Positions 14,109-30,299 of a stretch of 64,000 nt of DNA are shown here, in pieces (the stretch's first letter is position 1; each line of letters starts with the position of its first letter). Location of the stretch: assembly GCA_902805845.1 (NCBI GenBank), contig CADCUI010000064.1, positions 1-64,000 on the forward strand. The letters run 5' to 3'. This stretch comes from an uncultured Nocardioidaceae bacterium (GTDB lineage Bacteria > Actinomycetota > Actinomycetes > Propionibacteriales > Nocardioidaceae). The notes beneath the pieces are model-generated. The model worked only from the letters and a program-made list of their open reading frames with translations. It had not been told where the DNA came from and did no database searches. Position numbers and translations under genes: made by a program.

Positions 14109-14144
14109 GTCGCGTATCACGAAATGAGTTGCAGCATGCGCAAC
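14109..14144 (+). promoter_or_regulatory. Tandem operator pair at metF
   Basis: Site 1, 14109-14125 (GTCGCGTATCACGAAAT), matches the inverted form of the best site at 30283 at 14 of 17 positions. Site 2, 14128-14144 (GTTGCAGCATGCGCAAC), matches at 13 of 17 and has palindromic arms GTTGC/GCAAC. They start exactly 19 bp apart, the same spacing as at betB and the DMGDH gene. Site 2 carries the ATG of metF at its centre. The likely binder is an IclR protein encoded in the window (inference). Confidence 0.6.
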
Positions 14145-14990
14145 AAAGCCGAGGCAGCGGCGCTACGGGGGCTGGTCGAGACGGCACGCTACGAGGTGCT
14201 GCCCACTCCCACCATCGAGGACAAGATCCTCGAGCACCTCCCCACCGACCGGATGCTGACGGTCACCGCCTCACCGGCCAAGGGGCTGGAGGCGACGCTC
14301 GACCTGACCGAGCGGTTGGCCAAGCAGGGGTACGCCGTCATGCCGCACCTCGCGGCCCGCATGGTCCGCGACAAGAGCGAGCTCGCCGAGGTCTCCGACC
14401 GGCTGGTGGCAGCGGGCATCACGGCGGTCTTCGTCCCCGCCGGGGACAAGACCCCGCCGGAGGGGGAGTACGACGCCGCTCTCCCGCTGCTCGCCGACCT
14501 CACCGCGCTGGGCAGTCCCTTCGCCGAGGTCGGCATCACCGGCTATCCCGAGACCCACCCGCTGATCAGCGACGACGTGACCGTCCAGTCGATGTGGGAC
14601 AAGCGGGCGCACGCCACGCAGATCGTGAGCAACCTGGTCTTCGACCCGGCGGCCGTCGACCGGTGGCTCACCCGGATGCGCAGCCGTGGTGTCGGACTGC
14701 CTGTCTGGCTGGGCATCCCCGGCCCGGCCGAGCGCGCCAAGCTGCTGACGATGGCGACCAAGATCGGCGTCGGCGACTCGACCCGATTCCTCATGAAGCA
14801 CAAGGGGGCGCTGTTCCGGCTGGCCGCACCCGGCGGCTTCACGGGCGAGCGCTTCCTGGAGAACAGCGCACCCGTACTGGCCCGCCCCGAGTCGCAGGTG
14901 GCCGGGCTGCACGTCTTCACGTTCAACCAGGTCGCCGAGACCGAGCAGTGGCGTCAGCAGCTCCTCGACAAGCTGGTCAGCGGCCGCTGA
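14136..14990 (+). CDS. metF: Methylenetetrahydrofolate reductase (MetF family)
   Basis: 284 residues. An in-frame ATG at 14124 exists, but 14136 is preferred because it occupies the centre of an operator exactly as in iclR2. A TIM-barrel pattern with MLTVTASPAKGLEATLDLTERLAKQGYAVMPHLAARMV and ITAVFVPAGDKTPPEGEYDAA matches the MTHFR FAD/folate core. In this setting it would interconvert methyl-THF, formed from betaine methyl groups, and methylene-THF; the direction is inference. Convergent with the corrinoid operon, their 3' ends overlapping by 14 bases in a palindrome. Confidence 0.8.
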   Translation: MRNKAEAAALRGLVETARYEVLPTPTIEDKILEHLPTDRMLTVTASPAKGLEATLDLTERLAKQGYAVMPHLAARMVRDKSELAEVSDRLVAAGITAVFVPAGDKTPPEGEYDAALPLLADLTALGSPFAEVGITGYPETHPLISDDVTVQSMWDKRAHATQIVSNLVFDPAAVDRWLTRMRSRGVGLPVWLGIPGPAERAKLLTMATKIGVGDSTRFLMKHKGALFRLAAPGGFTGERFLENSAPVLARPESQVAGLHVFTFNQVAETEQWRQQLLDKLVSGR

Positions 14991-14996
14991 CCAGCT
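14971..14996. terminator. 26-bp perfect palindrome carrying both stop codons of convergent genes
   Basis: AGCTGGTCAGCGG (14971-14983) is followed directly by its reverse complement (14984-14996). The inner 14 bases give a TGA stop to metF (14988-14990) and to the DUF1638 gene (14979-14977), so both proteins end in LVSGR. As RNA it forms an 11-bp stem with a 4-base loop on either strand, fitting a bidirectional terminator, though no T-run follows. Confidence 0.7.
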
Positions 14997-15714
14997 CCTC
15001 GCCCAGGAGCTCCGCGAGCGCGGCCTCGAGCCGCTCGTGGCCGGTGTCGATGACGGTCAGCGGCAACCCGATCCGGGCCGCCGCCGACTCCGCCAGTGGC
15101 TGCAGGGCCGGGTCGCGCTGCTGGCGCAGCCAGACGACCCGGGTGTAGTGGCCGAAGTAGTCGTCACGGAGCTCGGGATGACGGTCGAGCCCCAGCTCGG
15201 CGAGGACCGTCCGGTCGAAGGACCTGACCAGGAAGTCGGTGAGCAGATAGGTCCCCGGCTCCTCCTCGAGCAGCCGACGCAGCCGCTCCGCCCCGGCGTA
15301 CAGGTCGTAGCAGTGCAGGCCCGACAGCCGGAGCAGCCCCCGGCGCTCGCACACCTCGTCCAGCGCTCCGTAGGTCCCGCAGTCGGCATAACCGACGGCG
15401 ACCGTGGCGTAGCGGTGACCCAGCTCCTCGGCGAGCTCCTCGACCTGGCCGGCGATGCGCTGCGGCTGGTTGTGCAGCAGCGGCGGCAGCGGGTGGACGT
15501 CGACCGGCCAGCCACGCGAACGCACGATCTCGGCGCACGGCTGCGCGATCGCACCGCAGGCGACCAGCGCCACGGCACCGGGCGGGCTCGAGCGCAGCGG
15601 TACGGCGGTGGCAGGTGCCCCAGCCGGCGAAGAGACCTCAGCCGGCTCAGCCGGGAAAGGCGAGGAGGTCGACGAAGCGGTCGTTGAAGTCTTGGCGATC
15701 GGAGAGCTCGACAT
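14977..15714 (-). CDS. DUF1638 protein of the corrinoid methyltransferase system
   Basis: Core from about residue 48: VALVACGAIAQPCAEIVRSRGW, LLHNQPQRIAGQVEELAEEL, VAVGYADCGTYGALDEVCERRGLLRLSGLHCYDLYAG, TYLLTDFLVRSF and YFGHYTRVVWL, the DUF1638 pattern with conserved cysteines. This family is repeatedly found beside MttB/MtgB-type genes and may handle the corrinoid cofactor (function unproven). I use ATG 15714 because GGAGGAGGTG lies 4 bases upstream, although this overlaps the RACo gene by 68 bases and adds a Ser/Pro-rich leader; GTG 15573 is the alternative. Last gene of the iclR1 operon. Confidence 0.65.
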   Translation of the reverse strand: MSSSPIAKTSTTASSTSSPFPAEPAEVSSPAGAPATAVPLRSSPPGAVALVACGAIAQPCAEIVRSRGWPVDVHPLPPLLHNQPQRIAGQVEELAEELGHRYATVAVGYADCGTYGALDEVCERRGLLRLSGLHCYDLYAGAERLRRLLEEEPGTYLLTDFLVRSFDRTVLAELGLDRHPELRDDYFGHYTRVVWLRQQRDPALQPLAESAAARIGLPLTVIDTGHERLEAALAELLGEELVSGR

Positions 15715-17620
15715 AGCGCACCTCCTCCAGCAGGGCGGTGGCACCCGCTCGCTCCTGCACGCTGAGCAGCGCCATCTTGGCGCCCTCGCCGGCCACGTTG
15801 CCCGCGGAGACGATCCGCAGCACGGGCAGCTTCGGCACCAGGCCGATGCGTACGGCGGCGGCGGGGGACAGGTAGGTGCCAAAGGACCCGGCGAGCAGCA
15901 CCTGCTGGACGTCGTCCTCGGCGAGGCCGAGCTCCTCGAGCAGCAGCGCCCATCCGGTGGAGATCGCCGCCTTGGCGAACTGCAGCTCGCGGACGTCGCG
16001 CTGGGAGAGGTAGACGGTCTCGGACGGGTCGGCGTCAGGAGTCGGCCGGTGCAGGACGAACACCCGCTCCTGACCGATCGTGGTCAGCCGGTCGGCGAGC
16101 CCCGGCGCGAGCTCCGCGGCACGGTCCTCGGGCACGAACCGCCCGGAGGCGTCCAGGAGCCCGACCCTCACCAGCTCGGAGACGGCGTCGACCAGCCCCG
16201 AGCCGCACAGCCCCTGCGGCTCGGCGTCGCCGATCACCTGCAGCTGGACCTCGTCGTCGCCCGGCAGCCGGACCACCTCGATGGCGCCGTCGGCGGCGCG
16301 CATGCCGCAGCGGATCGCGCCGCCCTCGAACGCCGGCCCGGCCGGAGCAGCGGTGGCCAGGATCGTGTCACCGTTGCTGAGGACGATCTCGCAGTTCGTG
16401 CCGACGTCGACGAAGAGCCTGACCCGCTTGTCGCGGTCCATCCCGGTGGCCAGCATGCCGGCGACGATGTCGCCGCCGACGTAGGCGCCGAGCGCGGGAA
16501 GGACGACGGCGCGCGCTCCCGGGTGGAGCGCGAGGCCGAGGTCGGAGGCCCGCAGCGTGGTCGGGAACGTCGCGGTCGACATCACGAAGGGCGCGACCCC
16601 GAGTGGCTCCGGGTCGATGCCGAGCGCGAGCGCGGTCATCGTCGCGTTGCCTGCGAGCGCGACCTCGTAGACCTCGGCGGGGTCGACGCCCGCCTGGTCG
16701 CAGACGTTGCCGACCAGCTCGACCAGCGTCTCCCGGGCCAGCTGGCGCAGCCGGGGCAGCGCCTCGGTGTCCATCATGGTCGCGCTGATACGCGTGATGA
16801 CGTCGGCGCCGAACGGCTGCTGCTTGTTGAGCATCGAGGCAACGGCCAGCGGTGTCCCGGTGGTGACGTCGAGCAGCGTGGCCACCACCGTCGTGGTCCC
16901 CAGGTCGAAGCCGATCGCGAACTGGCGGGCGGTCGTGTCGCCGGGCTCCACGTCGATCAGGACGTCGTCGACGACCACCGCGGTCACCTTGTGGTCGGCC
17001 GCCCGCAGGGCGTGAGGAAGCGACTGCAGGGCGCGCAGGTCGGGGGTGAGCACCAGGTCGTCCATCGCGTCGAGGAGCCGGGTGAGGTCGGGCCGCTGGT
17101 CGGTGAGGCTGGGCGCGTCGAGCTCGACGTACCGCTTGCGCACCGCCGGCCGCAGGATCACCTGCCGGCCGACGCCGACGGTGGCGGCCTTCGGGCGGGT
17201 CGTCAGCGGCGGGACCTCGACGGCCAGGTCGGACGTCGCCTGCGCGAGACAGGCCAGTCGCCAGCCGCTCTGCAGCTGCTCGGGCGTGAAGGCGCGTACG
17301 TCGAGTCGGGAGACCGGCACCGAGCCGTCGACGACCTGCACCTTGCACTTCTTGCAGGTGCCGTGACCGCCGCAGGTGGAGTCGATCGCGATGCCGTTCC
17401 AGCTCGCCGCGTCGAACACCGTGACCCCCGGCGGCACCCGGACCGACCGGTCGGCAGGGGAGAAGCGCAGCTGCACGCGGCCGGTGCCGTCGTGCGGCTG
17501 GCCGTTGCGTCCGGGCGGGTCGATGAGCCCCTCCCGGCGCAGGTGGTCCACCGAGAGACCCGCAGGTCCGGCGTCTGCGTGGTCGGGCACCGCGCCTTCC
17601 GCGGCGGGACCGCTGCTCAC
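15647..17620 (-). CDS. RACo-type corrinoid activation protein (2Fe-2S ferredoxin plus ASKHA ATPase)
   Basis: 657 residues from GTG 17620 (GTGA overlap with the upstream gene). An N-terminal 2Fe-2S domain has Cys83, Cys89, Cys92 and Cys124 (STCGGHGTCKKCKV ... RLACLA). A linker follows, then DUF4445/ASKHA: FAIGFDLGTTTVVATLLD (phosphate 1), LAGNATMTALALG, LFVDVGTNCEIVLSNGD and LLAGSFGTYLSP. RACo proteins use ATP to reduce inactivated Co(II) corrinoid to Co(I), re-entering the methyl-transfer cycle. It would service the corrinoid protein at 18492; the reductant (a ferredoxin or NADH reductase) is not in the window. Confidence 0.9.
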   Translation of the reverse strand: MSSGPAAEGAVPDHADAGPAGLSVDHLRREGLIDPPGRNGQPHDGTGRVQLRFSPADRSVRVPPGVTVFDAASWNGIAIDSTCGGHGTCKKCKVQVVDGSVPVSRLDVRAFTPEQLQSGWRLACLAQATSDLAVEVPPLTTRPKAATVGVGRQVILRPAVRKRYVELDAPSLTDQRPDLTRLLDAMDDLVLTPDLRALQSLPHALRAADHKVTAVVVDDVLIDVEPGDTTARQFAIGFDLGTTTVVATLLDVTTGTPLAVASMLNKQQPFGADVITRISATMMDTEALPRLRQLARETLVELVGNVCDQAGVDPAEVYEVALAGNATMTALALGIDPEPLGVAPFVMSTATFPTTLRASDLGLALHPGARAVVLPALGAYVGGDIVAGMLATGMDRDKRVRLFVDVGTNCEIVLSNGDTILATAAPAGPAFEGGAIRCGMRAADGAIEVVRLPGDDEVQLQVIGDAEPQGLCGSGLVDAVSELVRVGLLDASGRFVPEDRAAELAPGLADRLTTIGQERVFVLHRPTPDADPSETVYLSQRDVRELQFAKAAISTGWALLLEELGLAEDDVQQVLLAGSFGTYLSPAAAVRIGLVPKLPVLRIVSAGNVAGEGAKMALLSVQERAGATALLEEVRYVELSDRQDFNDRFVDLLAFPG

Positions 17621-18491
17621 GCCGATGCGGCGGCCTGCCGCTTGCGGTGAGCTGCGATCCAGCTCCCGCCCCACTCGTCGTGGCCGAGCAGCAGGTCGGC
17701 GGCCTTCACCGCGTCGACGATCTGCGGGCTGCGGGTGTCCATGATCGCGCTGGTGAGCCCGGCGGTCATCGCCATCGGCAGGAACGCCGCACCCAGCGTG
17801 TGCCGGTCGGGCATGCCGAAGGAGACGTTGGAGGCGCCGCAGGTCATGTTCAGACCGTGGACCTCGCGGATCCTGCGCATGGTGTCGAATGCGGTGAGCG
17901 CGGTCGCGGTGTCGGCGCCGATCGGCATGGCGAGCGGGTCGATGACGATGTCGGCCATGGCGATGCCGTACTCCCCGGTCGCGACGTCGACGATGTGCTG
18001 GACGAGCTCCAGCCGCCGGTCGGCCTCCATGGGGATCTCCTCGGAGTCGTTCGGCAGTGCGATCACCGCGGCGTCGTACCGCTTCACCAGCGGGAGGATC
18101 AGCTCCATCCGCTCGTCCTCGGCGGTCACGGAGTTGACCAGGGCGCGCCCCTGGTAGGCCGAGAGGCCGGCCTCGAGCGCCTCGACCACCGAGGAGTCGA
18201 TGCAGATCGGCAGGTCGGTGAGCTCCTGCACCATCGTGATCGCCTTCGCCAGCAGCTCCGGCTCGTCGGTCAGCGGCACACCCATGTTGACGTCCAGGAC
18301 GTCCGCGCCGCCCTCGACCTGGGCCTTGACGTCACGCTCGATCGCGGAGAGGTCGCCGGCCCGCAGCTGCTCCTGGAAGATGCGTCGCCCGGTGGGGTTG
18401 ATCCGCTCACCGATGAGGCAGAAGCGGCGCTGGTGGCCGATCACGACCTGCTTGCTCGCCGACCTCAGCACGGTCTCCGACAGCGGGGCGC

Positions 18492-18495
<4 letters not shown>
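17617..18495 (-). CDS. mtgA: Methyltetrahydrofolate:corrinoid methyltransferase, MtgA-like (pterin-binding TIM barrel)
   Basis: 292 residues from ATG 18495 in an ATGA overlap with the corrinoid gene. Dihydropteroate-synthase-like fold: FCLIGERINPTGRR, GGADVLDVNMGVPLTDEPELL, PICIDSSVVEALEAGL, ALVNSVTAEDERM, DIVIDPLAMPIGAD and MTCGASNVSFGMPDR carry the folate-site Asp/Asn residues of the AcsE/MtgA/MetH-pterin family. It would move the methyl group from methyl-Co(III) corrinoid to tetrahydrofolate. The partner assignment comes from its strict coupling to the corrinoid and RACo genes. Confidence 0.88.
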
Positions 18496-19153
<658 letters not shown>

Positions 19154-19157
<4 letters not shown>

Positions 19158-19957
19158 GCCGCGCCTTCCTTCTGCTTCGTGCCCCGGTCCTTCTGTCGCC
19201 GCAGCAGCAGCGACAGTGCATCGGCCTCGTCGGTGAGCCGCCGGCCGACCTGCTCGACCCGGTCGGCGAGCCGAGCGGTCGGGCCGGAGACACCGAGGGC
19301 GGCGACCACCTCACCGTCGCGGCCGCGCACGGGCACCGCCACCGCGGTGAGCCCCACCTCGAGCTCGTCGACGGTGGCCGCGTAGCCGCGACGGCGTACC
19401 TCCGCCAGGTCGCGCTCGAGCTCGCCGAGGTCGGCGACGCTGCGCTCGGTGGGCCGCTCCAGCGGCGGCTCCGGCATCGCGAGCCGGCCGTGGGCGTAGA
19501 GCACCTTGCCCAGCGAGCTGCAGTGCTCGGGCACCTGCAGCTGCGTCCAGTCGCGGGTCGCCAGCAGGTACGCCGAGTCGACCTGGGCGACGTGGACGAC
19601 GGCCGCACCTCGGGGGACGCCGAGGTGCGCGGTCTCGCCGGTGTGGTCGCGCAGCCGCTCCAGGAACGGGCGCGCGACTCGGGCAGTCTCCTGCCAGGGG
19701 TCGTGCCGGGCGGCGTGGAGCGCGAACAGCGAACCCGCCTCGTAGGACCCGGAGGCGTCGCGCTGCACGAGGTCGGTGCGCTCCAGCGCGGAGAGCAGGC
19801 GGGAGGTGGTCGAGCGGGCCAGCCCCGCGGCGTCGGAGATCTCGGTGAAGGTCAGCGGCTCGTCGGCGCGCACGACGAGCGACACCAGCGTGCAGGCGCG
19901 GTCGACCGCCTGGGTGCCTGTCACGCCCGAGCGGGGCGGGAGGTCGAGCTCCGTCAC
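19154..19957 (-). CDS. IclR-family transcriptional regulator 1, head of the corrinoid operon
   Basis: 267 residues from GTG 19957; GTG 19984 is an alternative and the ATG at 20038 would swallow the promoter palindrome. The winged helix at about 15-75 (LTFTEISDAAGLARSTTSRLLSALERTDLVQRD) is followed by the IclR effector domain (AHLGVPRGAAVVHVAQVDS, CSSLGKVLYA, RRRGYAATVDELEVGLTAVAVPV, ALGVSGPTARL). It probably senses betaine, choline or a catabolite and controls the divergent mttB through the palindrome at 19996, with autoregulation of iclR1-mtgC-mtgA-RACo-DUF1638 (inference). Confidence 0.85.
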
Positions 19958-19995
19958 CAGACCAGTCCTGACTGCCGTATCCACGCGGCCACATC

Positions 19996-20013
19996 GTGGA
20001 ACTTGACTTCCAC
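19996..20013. promoter_or_regulatory. Palindromic operator between iclR1 and mttB
   Basis: GTGGAA (19996-20001), six bases, TTCCAC (20008-20013): an 18-bp perfect-arm palindrome in the divergent promoter region. It overlaps the putative mttB -35 hexamer, so a bound regulator would block or shape mttB transcription. Its sequence differs from the GTTGCG/CGCAAC family, arguing for a second regulator, most simply IclR1. Confidence 0.55.
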
Positions 20014-20029
20014 ATGGTGAGGCTATGAT
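20003..20029 (+). promoter_or_regulatory. mttB promoter candidate
   Basis: TTGACT (20003-20008) and TATGAT (20024-20029) are near-consensus hexamers, but the spacer is only 15 bases, two short of optimal. A suboptimal spacer is compatible with a promoter that needs or is shaped by a bound regulator. Confidence 0.45.
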
Positions 20030-20059
20030 GCGGAGCACACTCGGTCAAGGAGGCCCTCG

Positions 20060-21499
20060 ATGTTCCGCAACTCGATGCCGCGTTACGAGATCCTCTCCGA
20101 GGACGCGATGGCCAAGCTCGACGCGGGCTGGCGTCGCCTGGTGACCGAGATCGGCGTCGAGTTCATGTCGGAGCGTGCGCTCGAGCTGTTCCGGAAGGCG
20201 GGCCAGCGCGTCGAGGAGAACACCGTCTTCCTCGACCCCGACTTCGTCCTCGAGCAGGCGGCCAAGGCCCCTCGCGAGTTCGACGTACAGGCGCGCAACC
20301 CCGCCAACAACATCCACATCGGCGGGGACGCGATGGCGTTCGGCGCCGTGTACGGCCCGCCCTTCGTGCGGGAGGGCGAGGTGCGGCGCGACGCCACCAT
20401 GGACGACTTCCGTCGGTTCACGCAGCTGGCTCAGAGCTTCCCGGTGCTCGACTCGGCCGGCGGCGTGATCTGCGAGCCCAACGACACCCCGCTCGACTCC
20501 CGCCACCTCGACATGACGCTGGCCCTCCAGACGCTGACCGACAAGGTCTACATGGGCAACGTGGTCTCCGGGGTCAACGCCCGCGACACCATCGCGATGG
20601 GGGAGATCCTGTTCGGCGGCCGGGAGGCCATCGAGCAGACGCCGGTGTCGATCTCGCTGGTCAACTGCAACTCGCCGCTGCGGTGGGACGACCGGATGCT
20701 CGACGCGCTGTTCGAGTACGCCGAGGCGAACCAGGCCGTCGTGCTGACGCCGTTCATCCTCATGGGCGCGATGTCGCCGGTGACCATCCCTGCGGCGCTG
20801 GTCCAGCAGATCGCCGAGGCGCTGTCCGGGATCGCGCTCGCCCAGCTCATCCGGCCCGGCTGCCCGGTGATCTTCGGGTCGTTCCTGTCGAACATCGACA
20901 TGCAGTCGGGATCGCCGACGTTCGGCACCCCGGAGTCGGGCATCGGCCTGCTGTGCACGGGGCAGATCGCGCGACGCTTCGGGCTCCCGTTCCGGTCCGG
21001 CGGCGCGCTCACCTCCTCGCAGGTGCCCGACGCGCAGGCCGGCTACGAGGCGCTCATGACCCTGTTGCCCACGTTCCTGGCGGGCGCCAACTGGGTGATG
21101 CACTCGGCCGGCTGGCTGGAGGGCGGGCTCGTGGCCGGCTACGAGAAGTTCGTGGTCGACGTCGAGCTGGTGCAGATGCTGCAGGCGGAGTTCACTCCGT
21201 TGGAGATCGACGAGGGCTCGCTCGCGTTCGACGCTCACCAGGAGGTCGGCCACGGCGGCCACTTCCTCGGCGCCATGCACACCATGGAGCGGTTCCGCAC
21301 CTGCTTCTACCGGCCGATGCTGTCGTCGTCGGAGAACTACGAGCGCTGGATGCGCAACGGCGGGGTCGACGCGGCTGGGCGGGCGAAGAAGATCTACCAG
21401 GCGAAGCTCGAGGCCTACGAGCAGCCGCCGCTCGACGACGCCATCCGGCACGAGCTCGAGGAGTACGTCGTGCGCCGCCGCAAGGAGCTCGGCGACTGA
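20060..21499 (+). CDS. mtgB: MttB-superfamily methyltransferase without pyrrolysine, probable glycine betaine:corrinoid methyltransferase
   Basis: 479 residues, start fixed by AAGGAGG at 20047-20053. The fold signature runs through YEILSEDAMAKLDAGWRRLVTEIGVEF, FGAVYGPPFVREGE, LDSAGGVICEPNDTP, ISLVNCNSPLRWDDRML, VLTPFILMGAMSPVTIPAALVQQIAEALSGIALAQLIRPG, GSGSPTFGTPESG-type and LPFRSGGALTSSQVPDAQAGYE blocks. There is no in-frame amber codon, so it belongs to the non-Pyl group typified by MtgB of Desulfitobacterium, which demethylates glycine betaine. Proline betaine or carnitine cannot be excluded, but flanking betB, betA and DMGDH genes favour betaine. Confidence 0.88.
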   Translation: MFRNSMPRYEILSEDAMAKLDAGWRRLVTEIGVEFMSERALELFRKAGQRVEENTVFLDPDFVLEQAAKAPREFDVQARNPANNIHIGGDAMAFGAVYGPPFVREGEVRRDATMDDFRRFTQLAQSFPVLDSAGGVICEPNDTPLDSRHLDMTLALQTLTDKVYMGNVVSGVNARDTIAMGEILFGGREAIEQTPVSISLVNCNSPLRWDDRMLDALFEYAEANQAVVLTPFILMGAMSPVTIPAALVQQIAEALSGIALAQLIRPGCPVIFGSFLSNIDMQSGSPTFGTPESGIGLLCTGQIARRFGLPFRSGGALTSSQVPDAQAGYEALMTLLPTFLAGANWVMHSAGWLEGGLVAGYEKFVVDVELVQMLQAEFTPLEIDEGSLAFDAHQEVGHGGHFLGAMHTMERFRTCFYRPMLSSSENYERWMRNGGVDAAGRAKKIYQAKLEAYEQPPLDDAIRHELEEYVVRRRKELGD

Positions 21500-21588
21500 C
21501 CGCCGAGTCGGCGCTTGTGCACGCCTGATGACCGCCGAGTCGTCGCTTGTGCACGCCTGATGACCGCCGAGTCGGCGCTTGTGCACGC
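21497..21588 (+). repeat. Three 32-bp tandem repeats after mttB (dispersed repeat family)
   Basis: Units start at 21497, 21529 and 21561, period 32, each TGACCGCCGAGTCGGCGC then TTGTGCACGC (one base differs in the second). The TGA opening the first unit is the mttB stop codon. The same core recurs four times after proX (30081-30197). The GTGCAC centre is self-complementary. Function unknown; a REP-like mobile or termination element is possible. Confidence 0.8.
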
Positions 21589-21643
21589 GTCTCGCCGCCC
21601 CGGCCCACGAGGGCCGGCCATGGGCACCCGTGTGCGCTGACGC

Positions 21644-21676
21644 GTCCTCGCCTTCGGGACGCGGGACCGAGGTCCC
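21644..21676. promoter_or_regulatory. Hairpin and palindrome upstream of iclR2
   Basis: CGCGTCC and GGACGCG pair across a 9-base loop (about 21640-21663), directly followed by GGGACC-GA-GGTCCC (21663-21676). The first could terminate mttB transcription; the second looks like a protein-binding palindrome for iclR2. Neither is proven. Confidence 0.35.
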
Positions 21677-21702
21677 GGCAGCAGAGACGCGCACGCACTA
21701 GC

Positions 21703-21719
21703 GTTGCGCCATGAGCAAC
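21703..21719 (+). promoter_or_regulatory. Operator over the iclR2 start codon
   Basis: GTTGCGCCATGAGCAAC matches the GTTGCGTGATACGCAAC site at 13 of 17 positions, with arms GTTGC/GCAAC. The ATG of iclR2 is at positions 9-11, exactly as in metF site 2. A -10-like TAGCGT (21699-21704) lies 7 bases upstream of the ATG, so the transcript may be leaderless and the site would sit over the transcription start, fitting autorepression. Confidence 0.55.
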
Positions 21720-22526
21720 ACCGCAGAGGCCGTCGCCAGCTCCCGTGCTGTCGACCCGGCCGTCCCCCCGGCTGTGGGCAGCGTGCAGTCGGTCGACCGC
21801 GCCCTCACGATCCTGGGCATCCTCGCCCGGCTCGGACAGGTCGGAGTCACCGAGATCGCCGTCGAGCTCGGCGTCCACAAGAGCACCGCCTTCCGGCTGG
21901 TCAGCACCTTGGAGGCGCACGAGCTGGTCGAGCAGACCGAGGACCGAGGCAAGTACCGCCTGGGGCTCGGCCTCGCCCGGCTCGCCGGCGCCAGCACCGC
22001 CCGGCTCGACGTCGTCCAGGAGGCCCGACCGGTCGTCCGCCGACTGGCGACCGAGTGCGGCGAGACCGTCAACGTCGCGGTCCTGTCGGATCGGGCCGCG
22101 TTGTACGTCGACCAGGCCGCAGGTGGCTCGGCGCTGCCGTCGCACAACTGGGTCGGGCAGCACATCCCGCTGCACGCCACCTCGAACGGCAAGGTGCTGC
22201 TCAGCGGGCTGGAGGCCGACGAGGTCGACCGCCGCGTGGACCACCTCCCGGCGTACACCGAGACCACGATCACCGACCGCCGCCTTCTCCATGAAGGGCT
22301 CGACCGCGTGCGGGAGTGGGGCTATGCGGTGGCCACCGACGAGCTGGAGGTGGGACTGACGGCACTGGCGGCCCCGGTACGGAGCGCGCATGGTGACGTC
22401 GTGGCCTCGTTGAGCATCTCGGGACCCAGCTACCGCCTGCCCGAGCTGCGGCTTCCGGACCTGGTCGCCCTCGTGGTCGAGGCTGCCGACGACGTCTCGC
22501 GCCGTCTTGGATGGGAGCGCCGGTGA
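21711..22526 (+). CDS. IclR-family transcriptional regulator 2
   Basis: 271 residues. Winged helix at about 22-85 (SVDRALTILGILARLGQVGVTEIAVELGVHKSTAFRLVSTLEAHELVEQ), then the IclR effector domain (GETVNVAVLSDRAALYVDQAAGGS, LHATSNGKVLLSGL, VREWGYAVATDELEVGLTALAAPV, SLSISGPSYRL). It sits directly upstream of betB, 91 bases away. The start codon lies inside an operator of the 17-bp family, which makes this protein the best candidate for the factor controlling metF, betB-betA-ABC and DMGDH-etf (inference). Confidence 0.88.
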   Translation: MSNTAEAVASSRAVDPAVPPAVGSVQSVDRALTILGILARLGQVGVTEIAVELGVHKSTAFRLVSTLEAHELVEQTEDRGKYRLGLGLARLAGASTARLDVVQEARPVVRRLATECGETVNVAVLSDRAALYVDQAAGGSALPSHNWVGQHIPLHATSNGKVLLSGLEADEVDRRVDHLPAYTETTITDRRLLHEGLDRVREWGYAVATDELEVGLTALAAPVRSAHGDVVASLSISGPSYRLPELRLPDLVALVVEAADDVSRRLGWERR

Positions 22527-22534
22527 GAACGTCC

Positions 22535-22563
22535 TTGACGGGCCTGCCGAGCTTCAGGATGCT
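22535..22563 (+). promoter_or_regulatory. betB operon promoter candidate
   Basis: TTGACG (22535-22540), 17-base spacer, GATGCT (22558-22563). The -35 is near consensus; the -10 keeps only the key A at position 2 and T at position 6. The operator pair begins at the next base. Confidence 0.45.
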
Positions 22564-22599
22564 GTTGCGTAACGCACAAGCTGTTGCGAGATACGCAAC
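22564..22599 (+). promoter_or_regulatory. Tandem operator pair at betB
   Basis: Site 1, 22564-22580 (GTTGCGTAACGCACAAG), has a perfect left half and a degenerate right half. Site 2, 22583-22599 (GTTGCGAGATACGCAAC), is identical to the DMGDH-gene site at 30283 in 16 of 17 positions. The starts are 19 bp apart. The pair lies between the promoter and the betB ribosome-binding site GCGAGGA. Confidence 0.65.
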
Positions 22600-22617
22600 T
22601 GCGGCGAGGATGCCCTG

Positions 22618-24087
22618 ATGTCCAGCCTGTACATCGCGGGGAAGTGGACCGGTGCCCGCGACGGCGAGCGCCGCGAGATCCGCTGCCCGTCCGACGGGAC
22701 CCTCGTAGCCGAGGTCGACGAGGCCGGGCACGCGGATGCGGTGGCCGCGGTGGCCGCGGCGCGCGAGGCCTTCGACGACGGGGCCTGGCCGGGTGCCTCC
22801 AGCCTGGACCGCGGCCGGCTGCTGCACACCGTCGCTGATCTCCTCGAGCGCGACAAGGCCGAGGTCGCCCGGGCCGAGAGCCTCGACACCGGGAAGCGGC
22901 TCGTCGAGAGCGAGTACGACGTCGACGACGTGGTGGGCGTCTTCCGCCACTACGGCAACATCGCCGCCGAGGACCCTGGCCGGTTGGTCGACACCGGTCG
23001 CCCCGACGTCGTCAGCCGGATCGTGCACGAGCCGATGGGCGTCTGTGCCCTGATCACCCCGTGGAACTACCCGCTGCTGCAGACGTCGTGGAAGGTCGCG
23101 CCCGCACTGGCGGCCGGCAACAGCTTCGTGCTGAAGCCCAGCGAGCTCACCCCGCACACCGCGATCCACCTGATGCGGCTGCTCGAGGAGGCCGGGGTGC
23201 CCGCAGGTGTCGCGAACCTCGTGCTGGGAGCCGGTGCCGCCGTCGGGTCGCCGCTGGTCGAGGACCCGCGCGTCGACATGGTCTCGTTCACCGGAGGCCT
23301 CGCCACCGGCAAGCGCATCATGGCTGCGGCCAGCGAGACGGTGAAGAAGGTCGCGCTCGAGCTGGGTGGGAAGAACCCCAACGTCGTCTTCGCCGACTGC
23401 GACATGGAGGCGGCGCTGGACTTCGCCCTGACCGCGGTCTTCCTGCACTCCGGCCAGGTGTGCTCGGCGGGAGCCCGGCTGGTGGTCGAGGAGTCGATCC
23501 GCGACGACTTCGTCGACGAGGTCGTACGCCGGGCGGAGCGGATCCGGCTCGGTGGACCGTTCGACGAGCAGGCCGAGAGCGGCCCCCTGATCTCCGCCGG
23601 CCACCGCGAGAAGGTCGAGGCCTACGTCGCCGCTGGCCTGGAGGAGGGGGCCCAGCTCAGGTGCGGTGGTCGGCGCCCGGACGACCCGGCGCTGGCGGAC
23701 GGCTTCTACTACCTCCCGACGGTGCTCGACCGCTGTCACACCGGCATGTCGGTGGTCGCCGACGAGTCCTTTGGTCCGGTGCTGACCGTCGAGACCTTCA
23801 GCGGCGAGGACGAGGCGATCGCCACCGCCAACGACAGCATCTACGGCCTCGCGGGCGCGGTGTGGACCGAGAACGCCGGTCGTGCCGAACGCGTCGCGAG
23901 CCGGCTGCGCATGGGCACGGTCTGGATCAACGACTACCACCCCTACGTGCCGCAGGCGGAGTGGGGCGGATACAAGCAGTCCGGGTTCGGCCGGGAGCTC
24001 GGGACGGCGGGGCTCGAGGAGTACCGGGAGACCAAGCACATCTGGCACAACGTGCGGCCGGCGCCCCAGCGCTGGTTCCAGGGCTGA
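22618..24087 (+). CDS. betB: Betaine-aldehyde dehydrogenase
   Basis: 489 residues, ALDH superfamily. Cofactor and catalytic blocks: [50 protein letters not shown], catalytic Glu248 in [16 protein letters not shown], nucleophile Cys282 in [18 protein letters not shown] and the C-terminal [18 protein letters not shown]. The Q-C-S context and the following choline dehydrogenase gene favour betaine aldehyde as substrate: NAD(P)-dependent oxidation to glycine betaine in the cytoplasm. First gene of a likely five-gene operon with betA and the ABC importer. Confidence 0.88.
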
Positions 24088-24100
24088 ACGGGGGAGCGCG

Positions 24101-25855
24101 ATGGCAGGCAGCGGCGGACCGCGGACCTACGACGTCGTCATCGTCGGCGGCGGCTCCGCCGGCTGCGCCCTGGCCAACCGGCTGAGCGCCGACCCGGGCA
24201 CCTCCGTGCTCGTCCTGGAGGCGGGCCGGTCGGACCTGCGGCTGGACCCCTTCATCCACATGCCGGCCGCACTGCCGTACCCGATCGGCAACCGGCTCTA
24301 CGACTGGAAGTACGAGTCCGAGCCGGAGCCTTACATGAACGGCCGCCGGATCTACCACGCGCGCGGCAAGCTGCTCGGGGGCAGCAGCAGCATCAACGGG
24401 ATGATCTTCCAGCGCGGGAACCCGCTCGACTACGAGCGATGGGCGTCGGACCCGGGGATGAAGGAATGGGACTTCGCCCATTGCCTTCCCTACTTCAAGC
24501 GGATGGAGACCTGCGTCGCCGGCGCCGACCGGTGGCGCGGGGGCAGCGGCCCGCTCATCGTGGAGCGCGGACCCGCCACCGGCGCCCTCTTCGGGGCGTT
24601 CTTCGAGGCAGCGCAACAGGCCGGATACCCCCTCACCGACGACGTCAACGGCTACCGCCAGGAGGGTTTCGCGCCGTTTGACAAGAACGTCTACCGTGGC
24701 CGACGACTGTCCGCTGCGCGGGCGTACCTCCACCCGGTCCGCGATCGCAAGAACCTCCGCGTCGAGACGCTCGCGCAGGTGACCGGCCTGCGCACCGAGG
24801 GGACCCGCGTGACCGGGGTCGACTATCGCAAGGCGGGCCGGGGCATCCGGCAGGTGCGCGCCGGCGAGGTCATCCTGTGCGGCGGCGCCATGAACTCGCC
24901 GCACCTGCTGCTGCTCTCGGGCATCGGCCCGAAGGAGGAGCTGGAGCGGCTGGGCATCGACGTGGTCGCGGACCTCCCGGGTGTCGGCCGCAACCTGCAG
25001 GACCACCTCGAGGTCTACGTCCAGTACGCCAGCAAGCAGCCGGTGTCGATCGGCCCCTGGCTCCGGCACCGCCACAAGCCACGGATCGGCGCGGAGTGGC
25101 TCTTCCTCCGTCGCGGGGTGGGCGCCACCAACCACTTCGAGGGCGGCGGCTTCATCCGCAGCAACGACGACGTCGACTGGCCCAACCTGATGTTCCACTT
25201 CCTCCCGATCGCGATCCGGTACGACGGGTCGCGGCCGGCCGGCGACCACGGTTACCAGGTGCACATCGGGCCCATGTACTCCGACGTGCGCGGCAGCCTC
25301 ACGCTCAAGTCGCGGGACCCGTTCGAGCACCCCGCCCTCCGGTTCAACTACCTCTCGACCGAGAACGACCGGCGGGAGTGGATCGAGATGGTCCGAGCGG
25401 CGCGCAGCATCCTCAACCAGCCGGCCTTCGCCCCCTTCAACGCCGGCGAGCTGTCACCGGGACCCAGCGTCGAGACGGACCAGGAGATCCTCGACTGGGT
25501 CGCCCGGGACGCAGAGACCGCGCTGCACCCTTCCTGCACCGCCAAGCTCGGCATCGACGACCTGGCGGTGGTCGACCCGGCGTCGATGAAGGTGCACGGC
25601 GTGGAGGGGCTGCGCGTCGTGGATGCCTCGGTGTTCCCGTACGTCCCCAACGGGAACCTCTACGCCCCCGTGATGATGGTGGCCGAGAAGGCCGCCGACC
25701 TGATCGCCGGCAACACCCCCCTCGCACCCGAGGTGGAGCCGTTCTACCGGCACCGCGAGGGCACACCGCTCTACCCGCCCGGCGACCCGCGCAACCAGCA
25801 GGTCAGCCCGCCGATGCCCGCGGCGGAGGGGCTCCCGGAAGGGGCGACCGCATGA
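24101..25855 (+). CDS. betA: Choline dehydrogenase-like GMC flavoprotein
   Basis: 584 residues from ATG 24101 with GGGGGAG upstream. FAD site [20 protein letters not shown] at 10-29, GMC signature 1 ([20 protein letters not shown]), signature 2 ([16 protein letters not shown]), catalytic His476 in [11 protein letters not shown] and the C-terminal Asn in [22 protein letters not shown]. Length and spacing match BetA, which oxidises choline to betaine aldehyde. Thirteen bases after betB, overlapping the ATPase gene at ATGA. Other alcohol substrates are possible but context is strong. Confidence 0.88.
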
Positions 25856-26976
25856 CGACGATTCCGAGGACTGGCCGGTCGACGGCGCCCCAGGGAGCCA
25901 CCGCCGGCGCGGAGCAACCACCAGCGCCGGGGTCCGGGGACGCTGCACTGTCGGTGCGCAACCTGTGGAAGGTCTTCGGCCCCAAGGCCGACAAGGTGGT
26001 CGGCACGCCGGACGCCGACCTGTCGCGCCAGGAGCTCAAGTCCAAGACCGGATGTGTCATCGGCGTGCGGGACGTCTCCTTCGACGTCGCGCCCGGCGAG
26101 GTCTTCGTGGTCATGGGCCTCTCGGGTTCCGGGAAGTCGACGCTGGTCCGGTGCCTCACCCGGCTGATCGAGCCGACGGCGGGCACCGTCGTCCTCGACG
26201 GCGAGGACGTCACCGCGGCGTCGGAGGCCAAGCTCCGGGAGCTCCGTCGTACTCACGTGTCCATGGTCTTCCAGCACTTCGGTCTGCTGCCGCACCGTCA
26301 GGTCCTCGACAACGTCGCCTACGGGCTCGAGGTGCGTGGCATGAGCAAGAAGGAGCGGCGTGCCAAGGCCACCGAGATCCTCGACCTCGTGGGTCTCGAC
26401 GGCTACGAGACCTCCTACCCCGACCAGCTCTCCGGCGGCATGCAGCAGCGCGTCGGACTGGCCCGCGCGCTCGCCAGCGACCCGACGATGCTCCTCTTCG
26501 ACGAGCCGTTCTCCGCGCTGGACCCGCTCATCAGGCGGGACATGCAGAACGAGGTGATCCGGCTCCACCACGAGCTGGGCAAGACCATGGTCTTCATCAC
26601 CCACGACCTGCAGGAGGCGCTCAAGCTCGGCGACCGCATCCTCATCATGCGCGACGGCGAGATCGTGCAGGTCGGTACGCCGGACCAGGTGGTCGGCGCG
26701 CCGGCCGACGACTATGTGCGTGACTTCACCTCCGACGTGCCTCGATCGCATGTGCTGACCCTCAAGTGGGTGATGCGCGACCCGCGCCCCGGCGACTCCA
26801 GCGAGGGCCCGGTGATGTCCTCGGACACCGTGGTTTTCAAGGCGGCCCGCGCCGCGCTTGCCTCGGCGCACCCCGTGCGCGTCGTCGACGGCGGCGAGCT
26901 CGTCGGCATCGTCGATGACGAGGCGATCCTCCGGGTCGTGGTCGCCGAGGAGACCACGGAGGGCTCCAAGCCGTGA
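25852..26976 (+). CDS. proV: ProV/OpuAA-type ATPase of a quaternary-amine ABC importer
   Basis: 374 residues. The N-terminus has the family block [16 protein letters not shown]; Walker [12 protein letters not shown]-loop [13 protein letters not shown], signature [15 protein letters not shown], Walker [23 protein letters not shown]-loop [13 protein letters not shown]. The C-terminal 90 residues retain roughly one CBS-like unit ([26 protein letters not shown]) rather than the tandem CBS of osmotic OpuA, suggesting substrate uptake for catabolism rather than ionic-strength sensing (inference). Coupled by overlap to betA and the permease. Confidence 0.9.
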
Positions 26977-29039
26977 CGGCCACCGCCCTCCGGCCGCCGG
27001 GCGCCGGCGCCCGGCCGGAGGATGACGTCGCTCCGGTGCAGCGCATGCGCCGCATCCCTCGCTGGGCGCTGGCGGTGGCGGTCGTCGTCGGCTGGGTGGT
27101 GGTCTGGTACTTCACCAAGGGCACGGACACCCTCACCCTCGGCGGACGCGAGAACACCGACACCCACGACACCCTCACGAGCTTCCGCGACTGGGTGCTC
27201 GCCAGCCGCGACACCAACCCGATCGTGCAGCTCACCACGAGCATCGCCGAGGTGTTCCGCAGCTCCGTGGACTGGCTGCAGCGGATGCTCTCCACGGCCA
27301 ACTTGCCACGTCCCGTGCCGGAGGTCGGGTGGCTCGGGGTCACGGCCGTCGCGGCCTGGGTCGGCCTGGCGATCGCCGGCTGGCGGATCGCCCTGCTGGT
27401 GACGGCCTCCTTCCTGTCCTTCGGCATCCTCGGCTTCTGGCAGGACTCCATCGACCTGCTCATCGTGACGTTCCTCGCCGTGCTCGCCGCGGTCGTCATC
27501 GGGATGCCGCTGGCCATCTGGATCGCGACCAGCGCCCGCGCCAACTCCGTGGTGTCGGTGGTCCTGGACCTGATGCAGACCATGCCGACGTTCGTCTACC
27601 TCATCCCGGTCGTGCTGTTCTTCGGCATCGGCGCCTCCGGTGCGGTGGTCGCCACGCTCATCTACGCCCTTCCGCCGCTCGTCAGGATCGCTGGCCACGG
27701 CATCCGGTCGGTGTCGCCGACCACGATCGAGGCCACCGACTCGGCCGGGCAGTCCCGCATGCAGCGGCTGCGCAAGGTGCAGCTGCCGATGGCGCGAGCC
27801 ACGATCATCGTCGGGCTCAACCAGACGATCATGGCGGCGCTGTCGATGGCCACGATCGCCTCGTTCGTCGACGGCCCGGGGCTGGGCCAGCCGGTGCTCG
27901 ACGGGCTGAAGATCAACGACGTCGGCCGCGCCTTCGTGCCAGGCCTCCTCATCGTCGTCATCGCCGTGATGCTGGACCGCACCACGACGGCAGCCAGCGA
28001 GCGGGCCGAGAACGTCGCCAGGCGAGGCGGCCACCAGCACGAGCGCCGGCGCAAGCTCCTGCTGGCCGGGACAGGCCTGCTCGCCCTGGTGCTGGTCTAC
28101 GTCTCCCGGGTCTCGCTCTGGGCTGCGGAATTCCCCGAGAGCGAGCTGGGCACCTCGTTGGCGTCGGTCGCGGACAGCGCCTCGACCTGGGTGACCGACA
28201 ACCTGAGCAGCTACACCAACCCCTTCCGCAACGAGTTCACCGTCCTGGTGCTGAACGGATCGGATGACCGCCCGGGCCTGCAGTCGCTGCTGGCCGAGTC
28301 GCCCTGGTACGTCACCGGCGCTGCGATCGCCGTGCTCGCGCTGGTCGTCGGCGGGCTCCGGGCACTGCTGCCGACCCTGGTGTGCCTGGCCGGGATCTAC
28401 TTCCTCGACCTGTGGCACGACGCGATGATCACCCTCACCATGACGCTGGTCGGCACCGTGCTGGTCATGCTGCTCGCCCTGGTCTTCGGGGTCTGGATGG
28501 CCAGGAGCCGACGTACCGACCTCGTCGTCCGGCCGCTCCTCGACGCGGGCCAGACGATCCCGCCGTTCGTCTACCTCATCCCGGTGCTGGCGCTCTTCGG
28601 GCCCTCCCGCTTCACCGCGATCGTCGCCGGGATCGTCTACGCCGCACCTGCGGCCATCAAGCTGGTCGCCGACGGCGTCAAGGGCGTGCCGGCCACCACG
28701 ATCGAGGCCTCCCGCTCCACCGGTGCAACCCGGTGGCAGGAGATCACGAAGGTGCAGCTGCCGATGGCGCGGTCCTCGCTGGTGCTGGCCACCAACCAGG
28801 GGCTGCTGTACGTGCTGGCCATGGCCGTCATCGGGGGGCTGGTCGGTGCCGGCGCCCTGGGCTACGACGTCGTCCTGGGGTTCTCGCGCAGCGAGGAGTG
28901 GGGCAAGGGCATGGCAGCGGGAGCCTCGATCGTCCTGCTGGGCGTCATGCTCGACCGGATCACCCGTGCAGCGGCGGCGGACCGGTCCGCGCCACGCGAG
29001 CCCTCGAGGACCAGCAGGATGCGCTGGGGTGGGATCTGA
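26973..29039 (+). CDS. proW: Fused double ProW-type permease of the quaternary-amine importer
   Basis: 688 residues from GTG 26973. Two complete BPD_transp_1 units occur in one chain: unit 1 about 165-340 with [44 protein letters not shown] and [19 protein letters not shown]; unit 2 about 465-665 with [43 protein letters not shown] and [17 protein letters not shown]. Each has the EAA loop that docks on the ATPase, so one polypeptide supplies both halves of the membrane channel. A hydrophilic linker and extra TM segments join them. Length is about twice that of usual ProW. Confidence 0.88.
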
Positions 29040-29096
29040 CGGCACGACAAGGGTGGGGACATGGGAAGCAGCACGCAAACCAACTGGAGGAGAAGC

Positions 29097-30083
29097 ATGA
29101 CTAGGGGATGGAAGGGCGGACGACTGGCCGCGCTGGCGGTCGGAGCGACGCTCGCCCTTGCCGCGTGCGGCAGCAACTCGATCGACGCCGAGACGCAGGA
29201 GAACGAGAAGAAGGCGCAGGCCGCGGGGGGTGCTTGCGAGGAGCTGAACATGGCCGTGAACCCGTGGGTGGGCTACGAGGCCAGTGCCTACGTGGTCGGC
29301 ACGGTCGCGGAGCAGGAGCTCGGCTGCACGGTCAACTACAAGAACCTCAAGGAGGACGTCTCCTGGCAGGGGTTCGCCACCGGGGAGGTGGACGTCGTCA
29401 TCGAGGACTGGGGGCACCCCGACCTCGAGAAGAAGTTCTTCGAGGGGTCCGGCGACGGATCAGCCATGGACTTCGGTCCCAACGGAAACGTCGGCATCAT
29501 CGGCTGGTACGTCCCGCCGTGGCTGGCCGAGGAGCACCCGGACATCCTCGAGTGGGAGAACCTCAACAAGTACGCGCAGGACTTCGCCACCTCGGAGTCC
29601 GGCGGCCAGGGCCAGTTCCTCGGGGCGGACCCGTCGTACGTGCAGTTCGACGAGGCGATCGTGGAGAACCTCGACCTGGACTTCAAGGTGGTCTTCTCCG
29701 GCAGCGAGGCGGCCTCGATCGAGGCCTTCGAGCAGGCGGAGAAGAACAAGGAGTTCCTCATCGGGTACTTCTACGAGCCGCAGTGGTTCATGTCCGTGGT
29801 GCCGCTGGAGAAGGTCGCGCTGCCGCCGTACAAGGAGGGCTGCCAGGAGCCGCCGGAGGACGTCGACTGCGACTACCCCGAGACGGTGCTGAAGAAGATC
29901 GTCTCCACGGAGTGGGCGGAGTCCGGTGACCCGTCGGTCGACCTCGTGAAGAACTTCGAGTGGACCAACGAGGACCAGAACACCGTGGCGAAGTACATCT
30001 CCCAGGACAAGATGTCCCAGGAGGACGCCGCGGCGAAGTGGGTCGAGGAGAACCCCGACAAGGTCAAGGCCTGGCTCCCCTGA
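29097..30083 (+). CDS. proX: Glycine betaine/choline-binding lipoprotein (OpuAC/ProX family)
   Basis: 328 residues; ATG 29097 chosen for GGAGG at 29086-29090 and the resulting lipoprotein signal (RLAALAVGATLALAACGS, lipobox LAAC). The mature protein has MAVNPWVGYEASAYVVGTVAEQELGCTVNYKNL, VSWQGFATGEVDVVIEDWG, GIIGWYVPPWLAEEHP and FLIGYFYEPQWFMS, with the aromatic residues that cage quaternary ammonium groups in this family. Last gene of the importer operon, followed by a repeat-built hairpin. Confidence 0.9.
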   Translation: MTRGWKGGRLAALAVGATLALAACGSNSIDAETQENEKKAQAAGGACEELNMAVNPWVGYEASAYVVGTVAEQELGCTVNYKNLKEDVSWQGFATGEVDVVIEDWGHPDLEKKFFEGSGDGSAMDFGPNGNVGIIGWYVPPWLAEEHPDILEWENLNKYAQDFATSESGGQGQFLGADPSYVQFDEAIVENLDLDFKVVFSGSEAASIEAFEQAEKNKEFLIGYFYEPQWFMSVVPLEKVALPPYKEGCQEPPEDVDCDYPETVLKKIVSTEWAESGDPSVDLVKNFEWTNEDQNTVAKYISQDKMSQEDAAAKWVEENPDKVKAWLP

Positions 30084-30086
30084 CCG

Positions 30087-30197
30087 CGAGTCGGCGCCAA
30101 TGCACGCCCAGATCAGGTCGAGTCGGCGCTTGTGCACGGCAGAGCCGTGCACAAGCGCCGACTCGGCGGGTTTTCGGCGTGCACAAGCGCCGACTCG
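30087..30197. repeat. Four copies of the mttB-3' repeat family, direct and inverted
   Basis: Copies of the GAGTCGGCGCTTGTGCAC core lie at 30087-30107 (direct, degenerate), 30119-30140 (direct), 30144-30165 (inverted) and 30177-30197 (inverted). As after mttB, the first copy directly follows the stop codon of the preceding gene in a TGACCGC context. The mixture of orientations makes hairpins possible. Confidence 0.8.
30119..30174 (+). terminator. Strong hairpin terminator of the betaine importer operon
   Basis: Bases 30119-30140 and 30144-30165 are perfect reverse complements: a 22-bp stem closed by the 3-base loop AGA, followed by GCGGG and TTTT (30171-30174). It is made of two head-to-head copies of the dispersed repeat. 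It separates proX from the DMGDH promoter. Confidence 0.7.
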
Positions 30198-30222
30198 GGA
30201 GGACGGGTCGGTCTTGACAGGC

Positions 30223-30251
30223 TTGACAGGCATCCCCGGCTGACCGAGGCT
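30223..30251 (+). promoter_or_regulatory. DMGDH-etfBA promoter candidate
   Basis: Consensus TTGACA (30223-30228), 17-base spacer, GAGGCT (30246-30251). A second TTGACA lies 9 bases upstream (30214-30219) as part of a short direct repeat. Transcription would start near 30258, just ahead of the operator pair. Confidence 0.55.
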
Positions 30252-30263
30252 GGAGGGACGTTC

Positions 30264-30299
30264 GTTCCCTATGACGCATCGGGTTGCGTGATACGCAAC
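30264..30299 (+). promoter_or_regulatory. Tandem operator pair at the DMGDH gene
   Basis: Site 2 (30283-30299) is GTTGCGTGATACGCAAC, the best copy, with perfect 7-bp arms around GAT. Site 1 (30264-30280, GTTCCCTATGACGCATC) is degenerate (11 of 17) and begins exactly 19 bp earlier, as at metF and betB. Confidence 0.65.

Follow-up and report, generated by a model that had tools for sequence, protein, structure and literature searches.

Paired palindromes in a choline and glycine betaine gene cluster of a Nocardioidaceae bacterium as likely operators of an IclR-type regulator

Known IclR Operators and Betaine Systems

Tandem operators are already known for regulators of the IclR family. According to the main text of Suvorova and Gelfand (2021; PMC8222616), palindromes of the form GTT-11-AAC occur in tandem in 94 orthologous groups, with 18–22 base pairs (bp) between centres, an arrangement read as tetramer binding, and IclR sites mostly lie at -20 to -80 from the start. 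An arrangement of this type is found in a stretch of 64,000 nucleotides (here called the window; positions 1 to 64,000, forward strand, of contig CADCUI010000064.1, assembly GCA_902805845.1) from an uncultured Nocardioidaceae bacterium, in which seven copies of a 17-bp palindrome with the common core GTTGCG-N5-CGCAAC accompany genes for choline and glycine betaine use. On comparative sequence evidence, it is very probable that the pairs formed by this palindrome are conserved elements at betB, at the gene of a dimethylglycine dehydrogenase-like flavoprotein (DMGDH), at metF and at iclR2, and that they are likely operators at which the regulator IclR2 would repress transcription until a compound of the pathway releases it.

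The palindrome is a group 1 palindrome (GTT-11-AAC) of the published class: it is odd, 17 bp long and bounded by GTT and AAC, and its tandem spacing of 19 bp lies inside the range of 18–22 bp. It differs from the consensus GTTYCRY-W3-RYGRAAC in its inner arm, which is GCG/CGC instead. The premise of the original prediction, that IclR proteins bind inverted repeats of this kind, is thus in accordance with the tandem operators described in that text. The main text makes no mention of choline or betaine, although the supplementary group tables could list this group; the GCG inner arm and a division of the pathway between two regulators are likewise not found in it.

Among individual regulators, TtgV shares the IclR fold, and its dimers are described as binding one extended operator cooperatively (PMC8222616, main text; TtgV-operator, PDB 2xro). 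TtgV is an efflux regulator with another sequence and another operator, and the similarity of IclR2 to 2xrn/2xro is weak (63 bits). Of the NCBIfam models, BhcR, AllR, IclR and KdgR give IclR2 some of its highest scores and align along almost the full protein, but all scores are far below the cut-offs (the best, BhcR, at 187.2 against 350 bits), so that IclR2 is not classed as an equivalog of any of them.

On the metabolic side, the closest described system is MtgBCD of Ruegeria pomeroyi (PNAS 2025; PMC12478193), with which the cluster shares MtgB, MtgC, the pterin protein, RamA, DUF1638 and MetF2, as far as the main text of that paper describes them. In the same account MetF2, SdaA, proteins of C1 oxidation and a BCCT transporter rise on betaine, and these are the kinds of gene that carry the GTTGCG operator here or in relatives. 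R. pomeroyi is a marine alphaproteobacterium, whereas the present genes form a compact cluster in an actinobacterium and include two iclR genes; IclR does not appear in the main text of PMC12478193. Papers of PubMed Central (PMC) under open licence yielded no report that combines IclR operators with glycine betaine in Actinobacteria, with betaine in Nocardioides, or with dimethylglycine and choline, and none that combines glycine betaine, a corrinoid and Nocardioides. IclR and dimethylglycine occur together in a paper on Roseobacter litoralis, and titles and opening lines of abstracts gave no report that ties IclR to the GTTGCG motif.

Paired Palindromes in the Window

The seven candidate sites are as follows.

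14109..14125: metF operator site 1, GTCGCGTATCACGAAAT, three arm mismatches
14128..14144: metF operator site 2, GTTGCAGCATGCGCAAC, includes the likely metF start codon ATG at 14136
21703..21719: iclR2 site, GTTGCGCCATGAGCAAC, overlies the iclR2 ATG at 21711
22564..22580: betB operator site 1, GTTGCGTAACGCACAAG
22583..22599: betB operator site 2, GTTGCGAGATACGCAAC, exact arms
30264..30280: DMGDH operator site 1, GTTCCCTATGACGCATC
30283..30299: DMGDH operator site 2, GTTGCGTGATACGCAAC, exact arms

All seven sites had been proposed in the original prediction, and all are present on reading the sequence. In each of the three pairs the members start 19 bp from one another, and the two strongest sites, at 22583 and 30283, are identical except at one of their 17 bases. 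The leading site of every pair is weak, with two or three arm mismatches. A search for the 17-mer with at most three mismatches gives four matches in the window (30283 being counted on both strands), and the same search in 100 shuffles gives a mean of 0.07 and a maximum of two; the sites are therefore not a product of chance. The argument that equal spacing at three loci is hard to explain by chance also holds up, since 19 bp is the sole spacing that recurs: among pairs with at most four arm mismatches it occurs three times, spacings of 63, 87 and 112 bp once each, and all others between 2 and 119 bp never.

The genome assembly (3.28 Mb in 91 contigs) contains exact arms at two places, both within the window, and arms with one mismatch at six more, two of which lie in the window; of the other four, the one at C1:86355 falls inside a frame that reads, by eye, as parA. 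Many equally good matches elsewhere, which the original prediction had given as the outcome that would count against it, were thus not found in the organism's own genome.

Conservation of the Pairs in Relatives

One scan with IclR2 returned at least 58 loci from named genomes (1.05 Mb together), which serve as a sample of relatives. According to the record titles they are mostly Nocardioidaceae, together with Serinicoccus, Jatrophihabitans and unplaced records, and their gene order is strongly conserved. The GTTGCG arm with a spacer of five bases and at most one mismatch occurs 154 times, in 55 of the 58 loci. The other twelve spacers (0 to 12) give 0 to 15 sites each, and 40 permuted arms give 5.3 on average and 25 at most. 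Around these sites, partners are found 85 times at -19 and nine times at +19; the mean elsewhere is 0.29, with the highest counts at +51 (seven), -51 (five) and -20 (five).

The pairs also keep their place relative to the genes. With at most five mismatches over the 24 arm positions, a pair precedes betB in 39 of 50 testable loci, DMGDH in 37 of 42, metF in 14 of 24 (at -27/-8) and iclR2 in 32 of 58. The ATPase gene of the ATP-binding cassette (ABC) transporter, kept apart in the count, is preceded by a pair in 3 of 49 loci. At 403 testable starts, summed over the other eleven genes of the cluster (DUF1638, RACo, pterin methyltransferase, corrinoid protein, iclR1, mtgB, betA, permease, binding protein and two electron-transfer flavoprotein (ETF) genes), neither a pair nor a single GTTGCG site was found.

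Promoters and the Sign of Regulation

Two promoters can be recognized directly before the pairs.

22535..22563, plus strand: betB promoter, TTGACG-17-GATGCT
30223..30251, plus strand: DMGDH promoter, TTGACA-17-GAGGCT

The pattern TTGACN-16..19-NANNNT directly precedes the pair at betB in 39 of 39 relatives with a pair and at DMGDH in 36 of 37, as against 24 of 4000 random windows, but at metF in none of 14 and at iclR2 in 1 of 32. The claim of a plausible promoter before every pair stands for betB and DMGDH; at metF only a weak -35 is seen by eye (TTGCCC-17-TAGGCT). Between the end of the -10 hexamer and the pair there are no bases at betB and 12 at DMGDH in the window. In relatives this distance is mostly 6–8 bases at DMGDH (30 of 36), and at betB it is 13–16 bases (27 of 39) or zero (5 of 39). 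The pair overlies the expected transcription start at betB in the window and begins just past it at DMGDH, and because of this position over or just after the start repression fits.

At metF the second site contains the likely start codon, ATG 14136, an ATG being present in 14 of 15 aligned rows. The string ATGCGCAAC is likewise found in 14 of these 15 rows, which places the likely start and the following Arg-Asn codons inside the site; codons 1–3 of metF (ATG CGC AAC) make up part of it. For iclR2, many relatives have the pair ahead of a TAGTGT-like -10 that sits a few bases from the ATG.

IclR2 is predicted to bind each 19-bp pair as two dimers and to repress the betB, DMGDH and metF promoters as well as its own gene. 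At betB and DMGDH the bound pair would follow the -10 hexamer and cover, or adjoin, the point where transcription is expected to begin; the start codon itself would lie under a site at metF and, in the window, at iclR2.

PobR and PcaU are activators of the IclR family. It is rather unlikely, although it deserves consideration, that IclR2 binds the pairs as an activator or with a sign that varies with site position. IclR2 matches the NCBIfam PcaR/PcaU/PobR subfamily at 137.7 bits, below the cut-off of 284.75, and in many relatives the iclR2 pair lies upstream of the apparent -10; both points favour this reading. At betB and DMGDH, however, the pair begins at or after the -10 and extends into the transcribed region, and activators seldom act at or downstream of the -10.

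A Second Palindrome and a Probably Divided Pathway

The step from glycine betaine to dimethylglycine is assigned to a corrinoid module, made up of mtgB, the corrinoid protein, the pterin methyltransferase, RACo, DUF1638 and iclR1. Its gene starts carry no GTTGCG site (0 of 38–45 per gene in the 58 loci). Instead, the gap between iclR1 and mtgB has a palindrome of its own, GTTCCA-N5-TGGAAC, with the same 6-5-6 geometry and different arms.

19986..20002: candidate IclR1 operator site 1, GTTCCA-N5-TGGAAC type, three mismatches in the window
20007..20023: candidate IclR1 operator site 2, 21 bp further on, four mismatches in the window

With at most one mismatch, this second palindrome is present in the gap in 38 of the 44 loci that have both genes. 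All 58 loci together hold 42 sites of the type, 41 of them in this gap, and the remaining one lies beside mtgB in a locus (L050) whose gene ends overlap as mapped. In ten cases a second site can be recognized, 21 bp further on.

The paralogous regulators also differ in their recognition helices: VHKSTAFR is near-invariant in the IclR2 rows, and IclR1 mostly has L(A/P)(K/R)STTSR. The second palindrome and the differing helices argue for two regulators rather than one. The original prediction had placed one regulon over the pathway. This can be retained for betB, DMGDH, metF and iclR2, which carry conserved operator-like sites, but a single regulon spanning the whole pathway is not supported by the corrinoid module. 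The pathway is likely split between IclR2 and IclR1, with GTTCCA-N5-TGGAAC likely read by IclR1; the corrinoid glycine betaine demethylase module would then likely stand outside the IclR2 regulon and under IclR1.

The Regulator Likely to Read the Pairs

The distribution of both proteins was compared with that of the pairs in 149 genomes of the window's family, with IclR2 orthologues called at E 1e-60 (58 genomes) and IclR1-like proteins at E 1e-40 (56 genomes). A strict pair is present in 35 genomes and its backward control pattern in none of the 149; of these 35 genomes, 34 have IclR2 and 33 have IclR1. A looser pair pattern is found in 57 genomes, 52 of which have IclR2, as do 6 of the 92 genomes without the pair. 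Thus 52 genomes have both, 5 the pair only, 6 IclR2 only and 86 neither (Fisher 2.5e-27, a value uncorrected for kinship, which these counts ignore). Of the 91 genomes without IclR2, five match the looser pattern and five its backward control; in all 149 genomes the backward control matches seven.

Among 20 stretches from this genome sample, eight represent genomes that have IclR2 but no strict pair. Seven of these have single sites or weaker pairs, and one (L162) has no recognizable site. A genome designated G023 is more telling. Its 19-kb stretch contains metF, IclR2, DMGDH and ETF, and iclR2 is preceded by a pair; a search of the genome at E 1e-40, with 16 of the 34 first-look candidates scored, detected no IclR1. 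This persistence of IclR2 and pair without detected IclR1 indicates IclR2 as the binder. Two Serinicoccus loci (L069 and L070) similarly contain metF, IclR2, DMGDH and ETF, the iclR2 and DMGDH genes each having a pair; IclR1, mtgB and betBA were not found within the 17–21 kb stretches examined. IclR2, proposed from the start as the natural candidate, is therefore the best-supported one: the pairs track it across genomes and persist without detected IclR1.

Several observations weigh against this assignment. The looser pair is absent in 6 of the 58 IclR2 genomes and the strict pair in 24, and IclR1 follows the strict pairs almost equally (33 of 35). Two stretches, L071 and L162, carry IclR2 with the same helix and yet no recognizable site. 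In the window itself iclR2 has a single site and no pair, and the metF pair is weak; among 30 genomes, each represented by its best folD copy, a single one has a pair at that gene. By residue-base correlation, as given in the main text of PMC8222616, His27 prefers G/C at position 10/22; the operator has T/A there (numbering by eye via the TtgV column). The residue-base rules of that text, applied to the helices of IclR2 and IclR1, were discarded as a guide, as they do not tell which protein reads GCG and which CCA. Finally, the organism's own genome contains, on contig C87, a pair with five mismatches (L196, 3685-3720) before a gene for a peptide-transporter-like binding protein, and no IclR2-like gene was found in the 8-kb stretch around it. 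In a relative (G104, locus L151) a better pair, next to a gene that is similar by eye, overlaps the start of an IclR2-like paralogue (37%). Judging by these two pairs, there may be a third IclR protein that recognizes an operator of similar sequence.

That IclR1 rather than IclR2 binds the GTTGCG pairs, or that both bind them as one regulon, seems improbable. The gene for IclR1 lies in this cluster too, and nearly all strict-pair genomes have the protein, but G023 and the two Serinicoccus loci have pairs and IclR2 without a detected IclR1, the testable starts of iclR1, mtgB and the corrinoid genes lack GTTGCG sites, and the iclR1-mtgB gap has its own palindrome.

The palindromes could also act as leader RNA hairpins (an attenuator, a riboswitch or a protein-binding RNA) instead of DNA operators, since those at betB and DMGDH would be part of the transcript, where each could fold into a stem of 6 bp. 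This reading was rejected and is very improbable: of 489 changed arm positions in 283 sites, 392 break the pairing, 91 give G-U and only 6 are paired double changes, and no Rfam match was found in window positions 13000-35000 at gathering scores. Moreover, the iclR2 pair precedes the apparent -10 in many relatives, so that it is DNA there and not leader RNA. A chance collection in a GC-rich genome, to which the weakness of several members (up to 3 of 12 arm positions changed) might point, is already refuted by the comparative counts, namely sites kept at similar offsets across dozens of loci, 403 other starts without a pair and a strict backward control without a match.

Organization of the Gene Cluster

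The genes around the sites are listed below.

14136..14990, plus strand: MetF-like methylenetetrahydrofolate reductase, divergent (PF02219, 29.1 bits, gathering 24, weak)
14977..15882, minus strand: DUF1638 protein, start uncertain (PF07796)
15647..17674, minus strand: RACo-like corrinoid reductive activator (PF14574, PF17651, PF17650, PF00111)
17617..18495, minus strand: pterin-binding methyltetrahydrofolate:corrinoid methyltransferase (PF00809; NF005719 above cut-off)
18492..19157, minus strand: corrinoid protein, MtgC-like (PF02310, PF02607; NF047996 4e-60, below cut-off)
19154..20038, minus strand: IclR1, paralogous regulator (PF09339 and PF01614)
20060..21499, plus strand: MttB-superfamily methyltransferase, likely glycine betaine specific (mtgB; PF06253 over residues 3-478)
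21711..22526, plus strand: IclR2, candidate operator binder (PF09339 and PF01614)
22618..24087, plus strand: betaine aldehyde dehydrogenase-like protein (betB; TIGR01804 5e-185, below cut-off)
24128..25855, plus strand: choline dehydrogenase (betA), start approximate (TIGR01810 above cut-off)
25948..30083, plus strand: choline/betaine ABC transporter, with ATPase (start approximate), double-length permease and binding protein (TIGR01186 above cut-off, NF008196 below, PF04069)
30326..32842, plus strand: DMGDH with a GcvT domain (PF01266, PF16350, PF01571, PF08669)
32855..34602, plus strand: ETF beta and alpha (ETF families, below cut-offs)

IclR2 consists of an N-terminal HTH_IclR domain (PF09339, 53.8 bits) and IclR_C (PF01614, 148.7 bits), both above gathering. 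The mtgB frame of 479 amino acids is open, has no in-frame amber codon and is covered by PF06253 almost from end to end. Its matches in PDB are 4yyc (1.7e-130), 2qne and 9yce ('Glycine betaine methyltransferase', 2e-116); the top-scoring 4yyc, which scores above 9yce, is named as a putative trimethylamine methyltransferase. The neighbours of mtgB are the corrinoid protein, the corrinoid:tetrahydrofolate methyltransferase and the activator, in an order kept in most relatives whose DNA reaches there. As a whole, the gene set implies a route from choline to betaine, then to dimethylglycine with transfer of the methyl group to tetrahydrofolate, and onward via DMGDH.

The permease frame at 26973-29039 is of double length and has two permease-type matches, like two fused permeases. 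Repeats of a CCGAGTCGGCGCTTGTGCACG-like unit are present as direct copies at 21505-21590, after mtgB, and as an inverted set at 30128-30195, before DMGDH; by eye they resemble repetitive extragenic palindromic (REP) elements or terminators.

Predicted Regulon Content in Relatives

The sites found beyond the core genes fit the pathway: genes for a BCCT transporter, purU, fhs, sdaA and folD carry sites or pairs in some relatives. Of the 15 loci (among 58) that include the BCCT transporter gene, 11 have a site at it, and two of the four without one run past the locus end. The gene purU stands divergent to iclR2 in 37 loci, with a pair between the two in 27. Outside the cluster, pairs precede fhs in two genomes (G007 and G118), and a pair with at most five mismatches is found at five of nine copies of sdaA, in five genomes all of one genus. 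The homologues of FolD (on C20) and Fhs (on C51) in the organism's own genome have no pair in the loci returned, and a query for an L-serine dehydratase matched nothing there, an empty result that carries no weight, so that the extension to one-carbon metabolism is seen in relatives only.

A search of 30 genomes for fhs itself (formate--tetrahydrofolate ligase, E 1e-80) found it in G118 and in 16 of the 21 genomes that have IclR2, and gave no match in the eight without IclR2; within the cluster loci it occurs in 16 of 58. Matches to the looser pattern in five genomes (G007, on C91; G015; G049; G064, at C1:6844; G109) were set aside because they look like chance; they lie inside coding frames or show no pair at the thresholds used.

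Effector and Biological Significance

Release of IclR2 would be brought about by a compound of the pathway, perhaps dimethylglycine. The likeliest effector may be dimethylglycine or a later product, a choice to which somewhat less than an even chance is given and which is suggested because IclR2 stays with DMGDH where the stretches lack betBA and mtgB. It could further be imagined, more speculatively, that the two regulators form a two-step relay, in which betaine opens the corrinoid module via IclR1 and the resulting dimethylglycine releases IclR2, the pathway being split at dimethylglycine.

The operator, its candidate regulator and the accompanying gene list concern the use of choline and betaine via a corrinoid (B12) demethylase in Nocardioides-like actinobacteria. 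In some relatives the operator predicts the co-regulation of purU, fhs, sdaA, folD and the BCCT transporter gene. Furthermore, since the cluster holds two sister regulators whose operator arms differ, it offers a natural pair for studying the DNA specificity of IclR proteins. If the relay is true, release of IclR2 would turn on DMGDH, MetF and a greater supply of choline, and in relatives also purU, fhs, folD and sdaA, as an outlet for one-carbon overflow, together with the betaine transporter. IclR2 would then be a regulator of one-carbon load in the Nocardioidaceae.

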